Positions 1,297 through 8,900 of a stretch of DNA of 64,000 nt are shown piece by piece. Source of the DNA: an uncultured Saprospiraceae bacterium. GTDB taxonomy: Bacteria > Bacteroidota > Bacteroidia > Chitinophagales > Saprospiraceae. The stretch is from the NCBI GenBank assembly GCA_937941765.1, contig CALDGQ010000056.1:1-64000 (forward strand), written 5' to 3'. The notes below the pieces were generated by a model. It was given only the letters and a program-made list of their open reading frames with translations. It was not told the origin of the DNA and made no database searches. The translations under genes and the position numbers were made by a program. Positions within the stretch are counted from its first letter, which is position 1; each line of letters opens with the position of its first letter.

Positions 1297-3189
1297 TTAT
1301 AATTTCTCAAATAATTCAACACTTCTTGTACCTGATTTCGTATCACTTATTTCGATAGAATAATTTCCAGCTGGAAATTTACTTACATCAATAACGTTAG
1401 TTTGTTGTTGTAATATTCCTGATTCTATTAATGCACCTGAAATAGAGCGAATTTTAAATTCAAATCTTGGGCTTAAAGAAGACAACTCAATTGTCAACAT
1501 GTTGAAAGTTGGGTTTGGGTATAAAGAGAAGGTTGGAGGATCTATTCCTCGAATTGAAGAAGTTATCAAATCCATCCCATCACAATCTTCATCCACATCA
1601 TTGTCAGGAATTTCTGTAGCATTTGGATTGATGGAAGGATTTGTATCATCACAATCTTCATCAGAATTAAAACCATCCATATCATTATCGATTACCAATG
1701 CGATGCCATCACAATCTTCGTCAATATCATTGTTAGGAATTTCAGCAGCACCTGGATTTACCTGATTATTTTCATCATCACAATCTTCATCAGAATTGAA
1801 ACCATCCATATCAATGTCAATAATTTGAGCGATGCCATCACAATCTTCGTCAATATCATTATTAAGAATTTCTGTAGCATTTGGATTGATTTGATTGTTG
1901 GCATCATCACAATCTTCATCAGAATTAAAACCATCCATGTCATTGTCAATTACCAATGCGATCCCATCACAATCCTCATCAATGTCATTGTTAGGAATTT
2001 CCGGAGCATCTGGATTGATAGAAGCATTGGTATCATCGCAATCGACATCTGATTCAAAACCATCATCATCCAAATCGAGATCAATAAATTCGTAGTTTTG
2101 AAAAAAACGGAAATAATCATCACCACTTGAAATTCCGAAAAAATCTAAATCGCCATCTGCTCCAACATCAGCTGGGGTAAGTAGTGTTAAGTTATAGTTA
2201 CTTGAATAAACTTCATTAGAAGAAAAAGAGCCGTTACCATTGTTATCAAAAATCTTTATTTTCTTAGAAATAGTAGTTTCTGATGTAGCAACAATATCTA
2301 TATCGCCATCGCCATCCTTATCAATCGGATAAGATTTTCCTGCCGAAGCACCACCAATTTGAGTTAAACTAAAATTTTGATTGCCATCATTCTCTAAATA
2401 ATTAAGGGATCCCCAATGGTTAGGTAACACATCCATATCTCCATCATTATCCAAATCTACTACATAAGATTCATGAGGATACTCAAAATTTGGTGCAAAA
2501 ATATGTTCATTAAAATCTTCATTGCCATTATTTTCAAACCATCTGATTTTCCCGCCATACCAGGTAGAAGCCAGTAGGTCCATATCTCCATCACTATCCA
2601 AATCACCTACTTCAATACCGTTGAAGTGATCATCGTCAATTTCAAAAACAACATGATTTATGAAATTCATATTCCCGATGTTTTCATGCCAAGAGATTTT
2701 AGAATCTCCAAAAGAATCTGTAATAGCTATCACATCCAAATCTCCATCGCCATCAACATCTTCCGCGGTTACTGATTCGCCTTCACCAGAATTATCATTT
2801 AAAGCATAGATGGCATGCATCGTAAAATTTTGATTTCCGTCATTTTCCATCCAACTTATTCCATGAAACCATTGACTCGCTGCGGTAAGAATATCCATAT
2901 CACCATCTTGATCCAAATCAATTGCAAAAACTTCTTCTATATTATCTTCATTGTCAACAAGAACATGAGAAGTGAAATTTTGAAATCCATCGTTTTCATA
3001 GCAAATAATGTCGTTCAGAAATATTGTTCCAACTACTGCATCTAAATCTCCATCACTATCAATATCTGCAACCGTTAAACCTCTAGGACTATCTACATAT
3101 TCCGAAAAAAATGAAGAAACTGGTTGTGCCAAAAGCACAGAAATATATCCAGAAAAAAGAATTGTAAATAGAATTTTCATTGCCTTCAT
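1297..3189 (-). CDS. Secreted FG-GAP/VCBS and MopE-type repeat protein with T9SS sorting tail
   Basis: Predicted cell-surface or secreted protein, 630 residues. Residues 1-22 form a signal peptide ending at LLAQ. Residues 30-370 are FG-GAP/VCBS-like repeats, each with an Asp-rich calcium-type loop (DxDxDGDxD, for example DIDSDGDLDAV) and a phrase like ENDGNQNF, expected to fold as beta-propeller blades. Residues about 375-545 are tandem 43-residue MopE-like repeats containing DxDMDGFNSDEDCDD and DIDEDCDG, typical of metal-binding motifs. The last 75 residues (YPNPTFNMLTIEL to the end) are a type A T9SS C-terminal sorting domain, so export through the outer membrane is expected. ATGs at 3187 and 3178 (minus strand) are both possible starts. 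Ligand and role are unknown. Confidence 0.88.
   Translation of the reverse strand: MKAMKILFTILFSGYISVLLAQPVSSFFSEYVDSPRGLTVADIDSDGDLDAVVGTIFLNDIICYENDGFQNFTSHVLVDNEDNIEEVFAIDLDQDGDMDILTAASQWFHGISWMENDGNQNFTMHAIYALNDNSGEGESVTAEDVDGDGDLDVIAITDSFGDSKISWHENIGNMNFINHVVFEIDDDHFNGIEVGDLDSDGDMDLLASTWYGGKIRWFENNGNEDFNEHIFAPNFEYPHESYVVDLDNDGDMDVLPNHWGSLNYLENDGNQNFSLTQIGGASAGKSYPIDKDGDGDIDIVATSETTISKKIKIFDNNGNGSFSSNEVYSSNYNLTLLTPADVGADGDLDFFGISSGDDYFRFFQNYEFIDLDLDDDGFESDVDCDDTNASINPDAPEIPNNDIDEDCDGIALVIDNDMDGFNSDEDCDDANNQINPNATEILNNDIDEDCDGIAQIIDIDMDGFNSDEDCDDENNQVNPGAAEIPNNDIDEDCDGIALVIDNDMDGFNSDEDCDDTNPSINPNATEIPDNDVDEDCDGMDLITSSIRGIDPPTFSLYPNPTFNMLTIELSSLSPRFEFKIRSISGALIESGILQQQTNVIDVSKFPAGNYSIEISDTKSGTRSVELFEKL
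1561..2076 (-). repeat. Tandem 129-bp repeat encoding MopE-like motifs
   Basis: Four units with an exact 129-bp (43-codon) period; the marker ATCATC(A/G)CAATC occurs at 1645, 1774, 1903 and 2032. Each unit encodes a DCDD...NNDIDEDCDG module. The near-identity of units at DNA level suggests recent expansion or ongoing homogenisation inside the gene. Confidence 0.85.
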
Positions 3190-3469
3190 TTTTATTAAAA
3201 CCTTACAAATAATCTCATTTTATTAAAGATGTAAAGTAATCACTTTCTTTCAGAATATGGGGACGATTGAGCGTAGATTATTCGATTCTGTCTGTAAATA
3301 GTGCATTTTTTACTAAATAATGACTGACAGTTTCGGTAATATTGATTTTATCATTAAATTAAATTTTAGCAAAAGAAAAGATAGTAAAATAACATGGTGT
3401 ACACTGTCACGCAACTACAATTTGCAGGGTACAACACCTATTTGATTTCGGAATATCAGAAAAGACCAA

Positions 3470-4282
3470 ATGACCAAAAAAATTGTTCAAATATTTTCAG
3501 GACTTTTTCCTAATTTTTTCGTAAAAATTGCATTTGACAAACTTGCCAATCCTCAAATTCGAAAACTTAGAGAAAGAGAAGTTGAGATTTTAAATACTGC
3601 CATTAAGCAAGATTTTTCCTTTATGGAATTTGATATAAAAACATATCACTGGACAGGATCCAAGGAAAGTATCTTGCTTATTCATGGCTGGGAAGGGCAA
3701 GCTGGTAATTTTTCGGATTTAATTTTAAAATTAAAAAAGGAAGAATTCAATATTTTTAGTTTTGATGCTCCTTCCCATGGATTTAGTAGTAAAGGTCAAA
3801 CTAGCTTATTTGAATTTACAGAATTGGTAGGAACATTAATTAGAAAATATAATGTTAGAAAATTGATAAGCCACTCGTTTGGAGGGGTGGCAACTACACT
3901 GGCATTATTTAACAATCAAGATATCGAAATAGACAAATATGCTTTGATAACAACGCCTGACAAATTTATCGAAAGAATTGAAGATGTTTCAATTCAATAT
4001 GGCATCAACAAAAAAGTAATTCAGAAACTTATCCAAAAATTAGAAAACGATTACGAAATAATTGTCAACCAAATGAATGTAAGTGATTTTGTCAAGGAAA
4101 TTAAAGTAAAAGAATCCATAATTTTTCATGACAAAGCAGATAAAGTAATACCAATTACCAGATCAAAAAATGTACATAAGAATTGGAAGCAATCAACTTT
4201 TAAAGAAGTAGAAGGAACTGGACATTTTCGTATCTTAAGAGATGAAAATGTTTTAAATCAAGTCGTGAACTTCATTAAGTAA
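3470..4282 (+). CDS. Alpha/beta hydrolase
   Basis: Cytoplasmic serine hydrolase of 270 residues. The oxyanion-region HG motif is seen in LLIHGWEGQAGNF (about residue 71), the nucleophile elbow is SHSFGG (about residue 137; the canonical first Gly of GxSxG is Ser), an acid lies in HDKADKVIP (about residue 224), and the catalytic His is in GTGHFRIL (about residue 252). Length and layout fit the general alpha/beta hydrolase fold; substrate cannot be inferred. The gene stands alone, 84 bp before the DUF2200 gene. It has no signal peptide. Confident on fold, not on reaction. Confidence 0.85.
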   Translation: MTKKIVQIFSGLFPNFFVKIAFDKLANPQIRKLREREVEILNTAIKQDFSFMEFDIKTYHWTGSKESILLIHGWEGQAGNFSDLILKLKKEEFNIFSFDAPSHGFSSKGQTSLFEFTELVGTLIRKYNVRKLISHSFGGVATTLALFNNQDIEIDKYALITTPDKFIERIEDVSIQYGINKKVIQKLIQKLENDYEIIVNQMNVSDFVKEIKVKESIIFHDKADKVIPITRSKNVHKNWKQSTFKEVEGTGHFRILRDENVLNQVVNFIK

Positions 4283-4752: not shown

Positions 4753-5319
4753 ATGGAAATCAAGATAAAACCGTTGTCAAAAGATTTAAGAGATGATTAT
4801 TTGTTTTTCTTTGATAATATCATTTTTGAAGATAATCCGGATAGGGCAAAATGTTATTGTTACGACTACCATTTCCTTGGAGATATACCAACATGCACAC
4901 GTGCAATGAGCCGTGCCGCTGTATCAAATCTTATCGATGAAACTAAGCTGACCGGTTATTTGGTTTTTAATAATGATCAACCAATCGGATGGTGTAATGT
5001 CAACAACAGATCAAATTATCAAAGATTGCTAAGAGACTATGATTATGTCGATAATCCCAATGATAAGGTTTGCTCCATTGTCTGCTTTTTAATTCATCCC
5101 GATTATAGAAGACAAGGGATTGCTAAAAAGATTCTTGAAAAAATCATAATGGACCATTCAAGTAAAGACTTTGATTATTTTGAAGCATATCCGAAAAAAG
5201 CAGCAACTTCATGCGAAGGAAATTTTAAAGGTCCATTGGAATTATATACGCAATTCGACTTCGAAATAATTAAGGAATATGAGGACGTTTATGTCGTGAG
5301 GAAAAAGATAAAAACATAA
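4753..5319 (+). CDS. GNAT family N-acetyltransferase
   Basis: A 188-residue acetyl-CoA-dependent transferase. The acetyl-CoA pyrophosphate-binding motif A is visible at about residues 108-130: VCSIVCFLIHPDYRRQGIAK, with R-R-Q-G-I-A as the (R/Q)xxGxG/A loop. The N-terminal part contains several Cys (KCYCYDYHF, PTCTR), as in GNATs of the GNAT-with-Cys-rich-start group seen in Bacteroidota and Firmicutes; whether they bind metal is not known. The preceding DUF2200 gene is 8 bp away and probably shares the transcript. The acyl acceptor is unknown. Confidence 0.85.
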   Translation: MEIKIKPLSKDLRDDYLFFFDNIIFEDNPDRAKCYCYDYHFLGDIPTCTRAMSRAAVSNLIDETKLTGYLVFNNDQPIGWCNVNNRSNYQRLLRDYDYVDNPNDKVCSIVCFLIHPDYRRQGIAKKILEKIIMDHSSKDFDYFEAYPKKAATSCEGNFKGPLELYTQFDFEIIKEYEDVYVVRKKIKT

Positions 5320-5669
5320 AACATAAATCCAGCGGAATTTATCACGCGCGATCAAATATCTGAAAACTTCCATATACTCCACATTTACTTGGGAGCAGTC
5401 CTTCAAGTGAGTCCTATCTTTTTATAAAAATAACTTCCATCTTGTAAGTCTCCGCTTGCGAAGTTGATTGTTATATTTAGCAGTAAATAGTTTCTGAATC
5501 GGAGTCCTCTTTCTATCAAACTACTGGCTTAATATCCTACCCACCACCAATTTTCAAAATTATTTTATAAAAATTCACAACTACGCAAAATAGTTGCGCA
5601 CTAGCATTTCATATTTGCATCATCAAACGCAAAGAGATGTGTTTAGAAAGTTCATTGACAAAATGTGGA
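5320..5669. other. Upstream region of the candidate structured RNA
   Basis: No gene seen. It contains an inverted repeat CAACTA (5578-5583) / TAGTTG (5591-5596). A CATATTTG box at 5610-5617 is one base off the Bacteroidota -7 consensus TAnnTTTG, but no TTTG at the right -33 spacing is visible, so the promoter assignment is weak. It may hold the promoter of the hairpin-rich transcript that follows. Confidence 0.3.
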
Positions 5670-6550
5670 ATTCAAAAATGAGTTTCACTTTGAATAGAAA
5701 ATCGATGATTCATTGAATCATTGGGGCGGCTTATCGTCCTTAGATAAACTTGGTAACAAGGATAAATCTTTTTGCAGGCTAGCAGAAAGAGACTGAATTT
5801 ATTCAGTGCACGTAAGCAAGCAACCGATGTAATTCATTTTTTAGCCTGGGGCAACCGCTGGGGTTGAAAAGGGATTATAACCAATCAAATGGTTTGAGAA
5901 GGAGACTTCAATAAGAAAAGTTGTAGTAACTGGTGAAATAAAAGCTATCCACTTTTGTTGTGCTAGTTGCAATACAAAAGATGCCCAATTAGAAATAATC
6001 CGGGATCTTGAAATATCGTGAATCGGGAGATTTACAAGAAGAAGGTTGGTATTTTGTAGGCCAAAATCTACGAAGCCATTTCCGAAGCTCTTCTTCTAGC
6101 CAATACTCTTTTGAGTCTGTTTTTACCGACAGAACTTCTATTAATGAAGCAAAAGACTTCGGACGATGTAGGAGTATACAAATAGTACATAAAAAGTATT
6201 ATTTGTATCAGTAGTTGCCTAAACCCATTGAAAAATATGGGATAGTAGAGGCCGCAAACCTTTACTATGTGGTAAACATTCTTTCAGTGCCGCTCAAAAA
6301 ATGAGCCGCCTGTTAATGGTGGGGGACCAACCCCTGTAATTGCAAAACGCAACATAAGGTTGCTATGCAGACCAAGTCTAAGTTGCCGAACATCTACATC
6401 GTTAATACAATTTGTATAAGTTGTATAAGGCATCGAATAAGTACAGGATTCTAGCGATAGATGAATGTGGAAAACAAGGGAACGCGAAAGCCATAATCCT
6501 TGGAAAGCTTATTCTTGAACGACCGTATTCTCAAATCGTTCTATTTTTTT
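5670..6550 (+). ncRNA. Candidate large structured non-coding RNA
   Basis: About 880 bases with no credible protein gene but a dense series of perfect or near-perfect local hairpins. Examples: ATTCAAA/TTTGAAT (5670-5695); ATGATTCA/TGAATCAT (5705-5721); CTTG-GTAA-CAAG with a GNRA tetraloop (5749-5760); TCTTTTTGC/GCAGAAAGA (5767-5790); ACTGAA/TTCAGT (5792-5807); CAACC/GGTTG (5852-5866); AACCA/TGGTT (5879-5894); CTTTTGT/ACAAAAG (5952-5980); ATTTTG/CAAAAT (6051-6067); a 10-bp stem ATAGTAGAGG/CCTTTACTAT with loop CCGCAAA (6242-6268); GCTCA/TGAGC (6292-6306); GGGG/CCCC (6322-6334); GCAAC/GTTGC (6349-6363). The series closes with a hairpin plus seven T (6517-6550), which fixes the strand. It does not match the signatures I know for RNase P, tmRNA, 6S, SRP, or group I and II introns. 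Function is unknown. The 5' end is uncertain. Confidence 0.5.
6517..6550 (+). terminator. Rho-independent terminator of the candidate RNA
   Basis: Stem GAACGA (6517-6522) / TCGTTC (6536-6541) with a 13-base loop, followed by TATTTTTTT. It fits intrinsic termination on the plus strand. Confidence 0.55.
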
Positions 6551-6636
6551 AAAAAAAATATTATTGTGTTGGCTTTTATTTGAAAACTGACACCTATTCA
6601 ACAATACATTGACATTATTTTATTTTGTTAATGTAT

Positions 6637-6810
6637 TTTTTTTGACTTTTATTTGAAAAATGTTTTGGATTGGGGTAACAATATGGATGGGAAGTAGATG
6701 TATTAGTGGTGTGGTGTTTTTTTTTGTGAGGTGTTGTGGTTTTTTGATTTGTAAGTGAATTGTGGGGATTGGGGTGGTTTTTTGTATATTGGGGGATTGG
6801 TAGTACCGTA
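6637..6810 (+). other. Strand-asymmetric G/T-rich tract
   Basis: For about 170 bases the plus strand is nearly all G and T with very few C. G-runs such as GGGGATTGGGGTGG and GGGGGATTGG alternate with T-runs. A two- or three-layer G-quadruplex is possible. The words CTTTTATTTGAAAA are repeated just before and inside it (about 6573 and 6645). The minus-strand 86-codon frame over it is an artefact of composition. It separates the RNA terminator from the HEPN gene. Confidence 0.6.
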
Positions 6811-6947
6811 TTTTCCTTTGTTTTCCTTTTGCAACTCATTTGTTGTAAGATGTTATAAGGACGTCTTATATGCAAGCGAAAAGTATACCTTATGATGGAG
6901 ATAAAAGATATATTCGTACCTTTTAGGTGATAGGTGTGGATGTGTAA

Positions 6948-8900
6948 ATGTTAGCATTAATTAAAAGACTAAAAATGTTACTAAGATATAATGGTTTTAA
7001 TAGAAAAGGAATTCCTCAAAAAGAAGTTGATAAACGATTTCAATATTTTCTTCACTATTGGAAGATTCTGAAAATAGAAAGAAAATATCAATTTATTCAA
7101 GAGGTTAAATTTGAATCACACCTTTCATTACTATCAAAAATAGAAAAACAAATAAAGTATAATTTCAAGAGTGCTTTTAGCAATATTAATTTTCTATTTG
7201 TAAACCATCAATATTTCAGTGAATCTAACCCGCTTCTAAAAACCAAAAAAGTTAACAACTTAGTAGTTAAATTAAATCTCCATCTTAATCCAAGCGGGAT
7301 TGAATCGAGAGATAATAGAAAGCAAATATTCAAACAAGAAGGAACTCGTTCTATTTTCCTAAAAAAGATTGAACAATTGAGAAAGATCTTAACTAACAAA
7401 AATTTCTACTCATTTTTTTTGGTCGATAGACTCATAAAAGAAATTGGAACAAACTCTCCAATCGACGAAAATTTTAAACAAAACATTAAGTTCTTAACTA
7501 ATTCATTCATCTCGTTACTTTACGATTTCGGATACAGTGCTGAATATATTTTTGAGATTCCTAATATTATTACTTTCAATTCTGCTCTAAACAAATTTCC
7601 ATTTGAAAAAGTTAGAAATGATTTCACGACGAAGACAGAATTTGAAAATTATGCTAATAAGGAAAGACAAAAAATGACGTTAACCAAAACAATTGGAGCG
7701 TTAAAAAACTTATTAAATAGAAAATATAAAACAGGATATTACATTTTTAAAATTTCAGATTTTTGTTTAGAAAATCCTAAAACGGTAAAAATTGGTAACG
7801 TTGAATTCTACAATCCCCAGTTAATCAGAAAAATTAAACAAAAGGAATATCACACTGATGAGGAAATTAAAAGAATTGAATATTTTTCTCCTGAAAAAAA
7901 AATTGATAAAAATAAAGTTTCAAAATGCAATGCATTAGTTCAAACATCAATAATAGACTCCAATAGAATTGAATCTCCTAAAGAACTTTATGATTCATTC
8001 CAACAAGTTAAAGATTCATTATCTACACTTAATCATCTGTCCGAAAAATACTCGAAATATAGTAAGGGCAACGGCTTTGTTGAAATCGACAAATTCATTA
8101 GGCTTTTTGATGACAAAACCATCAATACTTATAACCTAGGAATTTTCAATTCTCCGGTTAAACATTTAAACATAGATGATAAAGATTATTCTAAATATTT
8201 TAAATACTCAATCAAAACAATAAATACACTTGACCAAGATATAGATTTTCAAAAAACCTTGTTTAGAATAAAATGTGAAATTAACAAATATAAAGAAGAA
8301 GATAATAAGTTCAATTTTAAAGAATTATGGATACTTTGGGATTCATTACTTTCATATGAAGAATTTGTGCAGCTAATTAAAAATTCGATTTACATTAAGC
8401 TCGAAATCAATTTCATAGTAGAAACTAAAGTACTACTTTCAAACATTCTTGATGAGTCGCATTATTTATCAAAAAATAAATATTTTACATTAGATAAAAA
8501 GCAACAGAAAAAGCATGGTCTTAATTTTCCTTATAGAAGAATAATACCAACTAATTTGTTTGTAAAACAATTCGAAAAAATAAATGAAACATTGGAAGTT
8601 GAAATTATTGATGAAATTTCAAAAAACCTAAAACTTTATTTGACCGAGCCACGCAAATTCTATGAAGTTGTAAATAACTGGATTGAATCATCAATAAAAG
8701 AAATCTATATCCAAAGGAATATGGAAGTACATCATTCGTTTCGGGATAATCTTTCCAGGTTACGTTTAAAAAGCATTTTTATGTTGTTCTCAGAAATTGC
8801 ATCAAGTTTTTTAATTGAAAACATAGACAAAAGAAACCCTAAACGAATTGATTTGGCTTTAAGAAGAGTTGAAAAAATTAAGAATAAAAAAAGAAGGTAA
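6948..8900 (+). CDS. Large AT-rich protein with C-terminal HEPN-like motif, putative defence ribonuclease
   Basis: A 650-residue soluble protein, Lys- and Asn-rich, encoded in noticeably more AT-rich DNA than its neighbours, which suggests recent transfer. I do not recognise the first 550 residues. Near the C-terminus the sequence IYIQRNMEVHHSFRDN holds R590-N-M-E-V-H595, which fits the R-[N/D/H]-x3-H signature of HEPN ribonucleases, set in a predicted helix (SIKEIYIQRN) followed by another (RLKSIFMLFSEIASSFLIENI). That arrangement, a large unknown region plus a C-terminal HEPN, recalls ApeA and other abortive-infection proteins, but overall similarity cannot be tested here. ATG 6948 is the first start in frame. 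It follows the candidate RNA and the G/T tract in the same direction. Expected role: RNA cleavage in response to phage or stress; inference only. Confidence 0.6.
   Translation: MLALIKRLKMLLRYNGFNRKGIPQKEVDKRFQYFLHYWKILKIERKYQFIQEVKFESHLSLLSKIEKQIKYNFKSAFSNINFLFVNHQYFSESNPLLKTKKVNNLVVKLNLHLNPSGIESRDNRKQIFKQEGTRSIFLKKIEQLRKILTNKNFYSFFLVDRLIKEIGTNSPIDENFKQNIKFLTNSFISLLYDFGYSAEYIFEIPNIITFNSALNKFPFEKVRNDFTTKTEFENYANKERQKMTLTKTIGALKNLLNRKYKTGYYIFKISDFCLENPKTVKIGNVEFYNPQLIRKIKQKEYHTDEEIKRIEYFSPEKKIDKNKVSKCNALVQTSIIDSNRIESPKELYDSFQQVKDSLSTLNHLSEKYSKYSKGNGFVEIDKFIRLFDDKTINTYNLGIFNSPVKHLNIDDKDYSKYFKYSIKTINTLDQDIDFQKTLFRIKCEINKYKEEDNKFNFKELWILWDSLLSYEEFVQLIKNSIYIKLEINFIVETKVLLSNILDESHYLSKNKYFTLDKKQQKKHGLNFPYRRIIPTNLFVKQFEKINETLEVEIIDEISKNLKLYLTEPRKFYEVVNNWIESSIKEIYIQRNMEVHHSFRDNLSRLRLKSIFMLFSEIASSFLIENIDKRNPKRIDLALRRVEKIKNKKRR

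Follow-up and report, generated by a model that had tools for sequence, protein, structure and literature searches.

A tRNA-free chromosomal copy of the large RNA GOLLD with the operator of a putative WYL-linked RNA-repair regulon in a Saprospiraceae bacterium

GOLLD, a very large bacterial RNA, is known from phage and prophage genomes, where it often lies close to tRNA islands, and its function is described as not known (PMC12286853). For one member, env-38, and for that member only, cryo-EM has shown a hollow cage formed as a homo-14-mer; a ribosome pull-down has also been reported for GOLLD, and the GOLLD sequences of the same study were collected with a cut-off of 1e-5 (PMC12286853). In Salmonella, the rsr-yrlBA-rtcBA genes bring a Ro60-type protein, a tRNA-like Y RNA and RtcB under one control and are induced on tRNA cutting (PMC7790460). 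WYL proteins have been described as repressors of defence genes (PMC4012209, PMC11888443), and jumbo phages combine tRNAs with RtcB and Rnl1/Rnl2 ligases, in some cases also with TROVE (PMC7824862). We found GOLLD and RtcB together in no open-access paper, subscription papers lying mostly outside the scope of the search; GOLLD was likewise absent among the open-access matches listed for Ro60/TROVE, and the open-access papers that pair GOLLD with Bacteroidetes are, by title, about plant and soil bacteria.

Here we describe a GOLLD copy in a 64,000-nucleotide stretch of chromosomal DNA from an uncultured Saprospiraceae bacterium (the window). The RNA family is already known, and what is new is the setting, namely, a tRNA-free GOLLD under an RNA-repair operator. 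The features of the locus are collected in the table.

Table. Features of the GOLLD locus in the window
Feature	Positions	Strand	Evidence or remark
Palindromic operator CTACGCAAAATAGTTGCGCA, core TNCGCAA-N5-TTGCGNA at 5582-5600	5581..5600	+	Pattern search; common to rtcB promoters
CATATTTG, -7-like promoter element, a constant distance downstream of the operator	5610..5617	+	TTTG spacing across operator sites
GTTCATTGA, boxA-like element in the leader	5650..5658	+	Motif search
GOLLD 5' domain, with GGCGGCTT stem at 5725	5690..6036, start approximate	+	Alignment to 11 relatives; outside the Rfam model
GOLLD 3' domain (RF02032 model positions 1-416)	6037..6539	+	111.3 bits; shuffle z -19
Linker region of the 3' domain	6099..6200, limits approximate	+	tRNA absent here, present in most relatives; self-folding
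Terminal hairpin followed by a T run (probable 3' end)	6518..6551	+	Sequence, MFE fold

The structured RNA and its relatives

The preliminary description of this DNA had proposed that about 880 bases without a gene, unusually dense in local hairpins, form a large structured RNA, possibly of a new class. The lack of genes was borne out, the sole open reading frame (ORF) of at least 50 aa that overlaps positions 5670-6550 being a frame of 68 aa at 6008-6214, which lies within the conserved RNA. The density of structure held up equally well: the predicted folding energy of the plus strand at 5640-6560 is -272 kcal/mol, whereas 20 dinucleotide-shuffled versions give -208 +/- 7, for a z of -9.1 (-3.95 on the minus strand), and the MFE fold contains many local hairpins, one of which, near the 5' end, has a 10-bp stem. 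Of the terminator placed at the end of the segment, the hairpin (approximately 6518-6540) and the T run that follows it (6543-6551) were seen, and a strict terminator scan gave no call at 6518-6551. The element is larger than had been described, with a promoter element upstream at 5581-5617 and a GOLLD 3' domain that ends at 6539. Because the promoter element occupies this position, the RNA probably starts near 5625; its length is about 900 nt.

Rfam at gathering thresholds returned no match across the whole window, so that the Rfam scan proposed earlier as a check is misleading at default settings. A permissive scan of positions 5000-7000 did find GOLLD (RF02032), aligned on the plus strand over the full model (1-416 of 416) with E values of 2e-30 to 6.4e-30. 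The score lies below the Rfam curated cut-off of 150 bits, at which a member is called automatically, a threshold that belongs to the database and not to the molecule, and the copy passes the bar of 1e-5 used for GOLLD in PMC12286853. Homology to GOLLD, one of several families named at the outset as possible matches, is thus supported by an alignment to the entire model, and the suggestion of a new class is refuted by this match to a known one; neither ROOL nor OLE appeared in that interval, even at E values as high as 10. The Rfam model covers the 3' half only. Both features of the class are present in the window copy, that is, the full 3' domain and a large, structured, less conserved 5' domain, and the stretch around the linker (6060-6235) folds with a z of -3.8. 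Judged by sequence and predicted structure, the RNA encoded here is a divergent GOLLD.

Matches to RF02032 were found at 21 loci in 18 of the 199 genomes of the window's family, the window's own genome included, by a search whose stricter filters are able to lose weak matches; the same model matched none of 14 control genomes. Five loci, in 5 of the 18 genomes, reach 150 bits and 16 of the 21 fall short of it, which means that the Rfam default threshold overlooks most GOLLDs of this family. All 21 loci, the window copy and the five at or above 150 bits among them, could be aligned and placed in one tree. In this tree, the window and locus L049 form one clade (100/100) among tRNA-linked copies (100/99), and locus L034 stands outside on a long branch. 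The window and L049 copies share 68% identity over 937 aligned columns that span both domains.

An alignment over both halves was made for a single subfamily of 12 sequences (the window and 11 relatives), nine more divergent loci of the 21 being left out. RNAalifold predicted 212 pairs, and for 135 of them one or more of the 12 sequences has both bases changed with pairing retained; this covariation, present in both halves, supports the original proposal of a large structured RNA. Relative to 40 column shuffles, the consensus energy has a z of -37 (over the 854 columns in which 10 or more of the 12 rows are filled), and the 5' and 3' parts taken separately give -29 and -19 (60 shuffles each). 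Searches beyond these loci yielded little: a sequence profile of the GOLLD loci matched only known GOLLDs and, elsewhere, just its own tRNA-bearing part, with no further operator-linked GOLLD; two DNA patterns found no GOLLD in viral contigs; and blastn against phage and plasmid collections gave no match. TROVE/Ro60 relatives were seen on seven viral contigs (L206-L212, 8 to 176 kb), none of which has a GOLLD match.

Genomic setting and promoter of the GOLLD copies

ARAGORN called tRNA genes in the fetched DNA of 18 of the 21 GOLLD loci, 14 of which have a tRNA inside the 3' domain (the anticodon is unclear in three). No tRNA was called in the fetched DNA of the other three, the window (64 kb), L034 (genome G145) and L049 (genome G180); the fetched stretches range from 3.5 kb (L034, a whole contig) to 18 kb. 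The usual tRNA and phage neighbourhood of GOLLD, which is not a requirement for membership, was not found in the window. The copy there is flanked by a repeat protein (recognized from sequence), a hydrolase, a DUF2200 protein, an acetyltransferase and a 650-aa protein, and six flanking proteins scanned include no phage structural family. The ORF for the 650-aa protein (6948-8900) lies on the same strand, 400 nt beyond the RNA end, and Pfam, NCBIfam, PADLOC and PHROGs all gave nothing for it. Between the RNA and this ORF, positions 6655-6800 are rich in G and T and poor in C. The window GOLLD is, in sum, chromosomal, tRNA-free and about 900 nt long.

Genes related to RNA repair also occur beside tRNA-linked copies. 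TROVE ORFs lie downstream of GOLLD once in genome G034 and twice in genome G100, and a phage-type RtcB lies 2.8 kb from another GOLLD of G100; these make up 3 of the 17 tRNA-bearing stretches, as judged by BLAST. On contig C44 of G034 (locus L035), two different GOLLD types (1268-1741 and 3004-3478) lie within a single tRNA array, with a TROVE gene after them.

When positions 5560-6600 were used for a DNA search, the only matches other than GOLLD parts were to the 5' edge, on contig C108 of the window's own genome and in the relatives G001 and G036. The shared element consists of CTACGCAAAATNNTTGCGNA followed by TTTG. In the 6.25-Mb genome, the strict operator pattern has three sites (none with the reversed control) and the loose pattern, TNCGCAA-N5-TTGCGNA, has four (control, none). 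The window carries the operator with TTTG at the fixed spacing (5581-5617) and contains no other match within one mismatch, as compared with 11 of 100 window shuffles that also contain one. TTTG occurs near the expected spacing at 115 of 134 strict operator sites, and TAnnTTTG is presumably the -7 element of Bacteroidota. Farther downstream, the motif [AG][TC]TC[AT]TTGA occurs in the 700 nt that precede the 3' domain at 16 of the 21 GOLLD loci (a raw count). The leader element, which has the form GTTC(A/T)TTGA, resembles a boxA and may serve antitermination as in rRNA; no 16S gene for comparison of leaders was found in the four genomes queried.

The operator stands upstream of GOLLD without mismatch in the window and at L049 and with one mismatch at L034, that is, at exactly the three tRNA-free loci and at none of the remaining 18. 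Under random assignment, this coincidence would have a chance of 1 in 1330, a figure that is too strong because the window and L049 are related. Within 235 kb of GOLLD flanks, four places match the operator within one mismatch, and three of these are the operator-bearing GOLLDs. Matches with two mismatches lie upstream of L043, L045, L048 and L052; operator-like matches at L043, L044 and L045 (two or three mismatches) were rejected, since they fall in tRNA genes. In G145, the operators at GOLLD and at an RtcB-type gene are altered identically, both having CTGCGCA as the right half. Mapped on the tree, the tRNA-free, operator-bearing state needs two changes, and the tree is compatible with two gains of the operator link as well as with one gain and one loss. 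Among 37 named operator-bearing genomes, chosen from the 115 listed stretches described below, two have a GOLLD; both had already been sampled and both GOLLDs are without the operator.

RNA-repair genes that carry the same operator

In the window's own genome, one further site (C108:4843) lies between a WYL-domain gene and the divergent rtcB, and another (C108:6823) precedes a noncoding stretch and then the gene for a RING-type protein (MXAN_6230/SCO0854) of 747 aa, whose score of 134 bits is under the model cut-off of 600. Downstream of the fourth, loose site (C119:8325, L225) come a DUF4145 ORF and an ORF for a reverse transcriptase, which may form a defence system controlled in the same way. 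A search for TROVE in this assembly, which is 81.6% complete, was negative. G180 (6.8 Mb) has three loose sites, at rtcB, a DUF2828 ORF and GOLLD; G034 and G073, whose GOLLDs have no operator, each have two, one of them at rtcB. The loose search found two sites in G145, neither at GOLLD nor at RtcB, because its GOLLD and RtcB sites both carry a mismatch.

A scan of named genomes for CTRCGCAAAATNNTTGCGYA returned at least 115 stretches (L088-L202) with at least 130 sites, at least 111 of which have TTTG at the right spacing; the titles of 80 listed stretches are mostly of Flavobacteriia and Saprospiraceae. The first three ORFs within 2 kb of each site were counted. Among the matches listed, 93 TTTG sites are followed by 1.2 kb of sequence or more; 58 of these precede RtcB, TROVE, RlaP-type, PNKP-ligase or T4-type RNA-ligase ORFs, and the count rises to 82 of 93 when RING/SCO0854, SPFH and DUF2828 are added. 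The TTTG sites include many from close Flavobacterium relatives, which are not independent. Of the 19 listed sites without TTTG, one has any of these gene classes, a contrast that is largely one between phyla because such sites are mostly outside Bacteroidota. By class, the at least 111 TTTG sites listed include RtcB (41), RING/SCO0854 (18), TROVE (10), SPFH (9), RlaP/nucleotidyltransferase (7), PNKP ligase (4), T4-type RNA ligase (4) and DUF2828 (1). Pfam or NCBIfam identified one representative per class, and BLAST assigned the others; the Pfam families are RtcB, TROVE, PNKP_ligase, RNA_lig_T4_1 and RlaP.

A divergent WYL gene lies within 2.5 kb of 46 of 89 sites (first 80 loci of the matches listed). 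For rtcB itself, 20 genomes were chosen and gave 28 RtcB matches: 12 are of the window genome's own type, 10 of which have the operator and nine a divergent WYL gene (L067 has neither and L079 is cut), and 16 are of the other type, with the operator, within one mismatch, in one of them (L072, in G145). The position of the WYL gene points to the WYL-domain protein encoded divergently from rtcB as the most likely regulator. Taken together, the sites delineate a putative WYL-linked RNA-repair regulon, comprising RtcB, Ro60, RNA ligases, RlaP, SPFH and RING/SCO0854 and marked by the palindrome with TTTG at fixed spacing, in many Flavobacteriia and Saprospiraceae.

The noncoding stretches between the operator and the RING-type genes are probably Y-RNA-like transcripts. 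In an alignment of such stretches from 11 loci, the ten that come from outside the window's own genome showed, by eye, a tRNA with an insert replacing the anticodon arm, together with repeats GGTCAA...AACTTACTTC. The stretch in the window's own genome (L056, C108 6843-7337) aligns weakly and has the repeats and a T-loop-like GGTTCGATTCC; ARAGORN called no tRNA in it, and Rfam gave no match at E < 0.04. By this resemblance, the stretch and its counterparts in Flavobacterium (e.g., L094, L114 and L144) are perhaps multi-module Y RNAs.

Possible role and comparison with known systems

A promoter element common to GOLLD and RNA-repair genes suggests that GOLLD may help the cell to cope with RNA damage. 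We regard it as probable that the locus is a tRNA-free chromosomal GOLLD whose promoter carries the operator of the RNA-repair regulon, with the WYL protein encoded divergently from rtcB as the most likely regulator, and that GOLLD would act in the RNA-damage response by the following steps: (i) RNA damage, for instance, tRNA cut by defence or toxin nucleases, would be sensed by the WYL protein; (ii) the WYL protein would switch on rtcB, the Y-RNA-like transcript with the RING/SCO0854-type protein, and GOLLD together, as their shared operator suggests; (iii) GOLLD would form a cage, as published for env-38; and (iv) the cage would shelter or hold RNA or RNPs until repair. Under the repair operator, GOLLD would thus do the same work as the tRNA-linked copies, minus the tRNA cargo. 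On our reading of the tree, GOLLD may have been drawn into the regulon once or twice. What speaks against this is the small number of operator-linked GOLLDs, three in all, with the window and L049 forming one lineage and the L034 site bearing a mismatch; the 37 named genomes added no further case, the operator is rare at other-type rtcB loci, and TROVE was not detected in the window's own assembly. A wider proposal, held tentatively and close to evenly balanced, is that GOLLD cages are part of the bacterial RNA-damage response. On this view, a GOLLD once linked to tRNA genes would have lost its tRNA cargo, in one lineage or two, and come under the operator of RtcB, Ro60, Y RNA and RNA ligase. 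It would then offer damaged RNA a shelter or scaffold that can be induced, and the copies in phages would do likewise against tRNA-cutting defence.

The first alternative is that the copy is a remnant of a phage or tRNA-array element without a role in the cell, its operator being due to chance or a borrowed promoter. The published GOLLDs indeed come from phages and prophages, in the neighbourhood of tRNA islands (PMC12286853), and tRNAs accompany most relatives in the window's family. We nonetheless consider a remnant unlikely: the six flanking proteins scanned include no phage structural family, blastn found nothing in the phage and plasmid collections, the window and L049 copies have retained structure despite their divergence, and the operator occurs three to four times per genome in the window's own genome (G000) and G180. 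It is improbable to a somewhat greater degree that the operator, although real, serves the 650-aa ORF or read-through, with the RNA as a long leader. The position and strand of that ORF would allow this, and long noncoding stretches separate operator and protein gene elsewhere, but the downstream ORFs differ across the 21 GOLLD loci and the window RNA ends with a hairpin and T run. That the RNA is of a new class and matches RF02032 through general complexity, a thought to which the score below the cut-off might give rise, is very hard to reconcile with a full-length match at E 6e-30, with relatives that exceed the cut-off when aligned over the same positions and fall into a common alignment and tree, and with the lack of matches in the control genomes. 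A degenerate protein-coding region, for which one could cite the 68-aa frame, can be dismissed given the covariation in both halves and the absence of any other frame of at least 50 aa. An integron cassette, an idea prompted by the small ORFs, was considered and set aside.

With a stand-alone GOLLD tied to a defined operator, as in the preferred reading of an RNA-damage role, the function of this very large bacterial RNA becomes a question that can be approached by experiment. Among known systems, GOLLD itself (RF02032, env-38) is the closest, sharing with the window copy the 3' domain (1-416), the linker, an ornate 5' domain, a length of about 900 nt and relatives with tRNA genes; the window copy differs from the GOLLDs of PMC12286853, as they are described there, in its score below the Rfam cut-off, in having no tRNA in or near it and no phage genes seen around it, and in its RNA-repair operator. 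ROOL and OLE are comparable as giant ornate RNAs, ROOL also being a cage (PMC12286853). The WYL regulators of defence are alike in that a WYL protein stands beside genes of nucleic-acid conflict, whereas here the palindrome recurs at RNA-repair loci (PMC4012209, PMC11888443). Compared with the RNA-repair sets of jumbo phages (PMC7824862), the set described here is chromosomal and scattered over the genome. Finally, Salmonella rsr-yrlBA-rtcBA likewise joins RtcB, a Ro60-type protein and a tRNA-like Y RNA, but its regulator is RtcR (sigma-54) (PMC7790460), whereas here a WYL gene accompanies the palindrome at scattered loci and GOLLD is added to the set.
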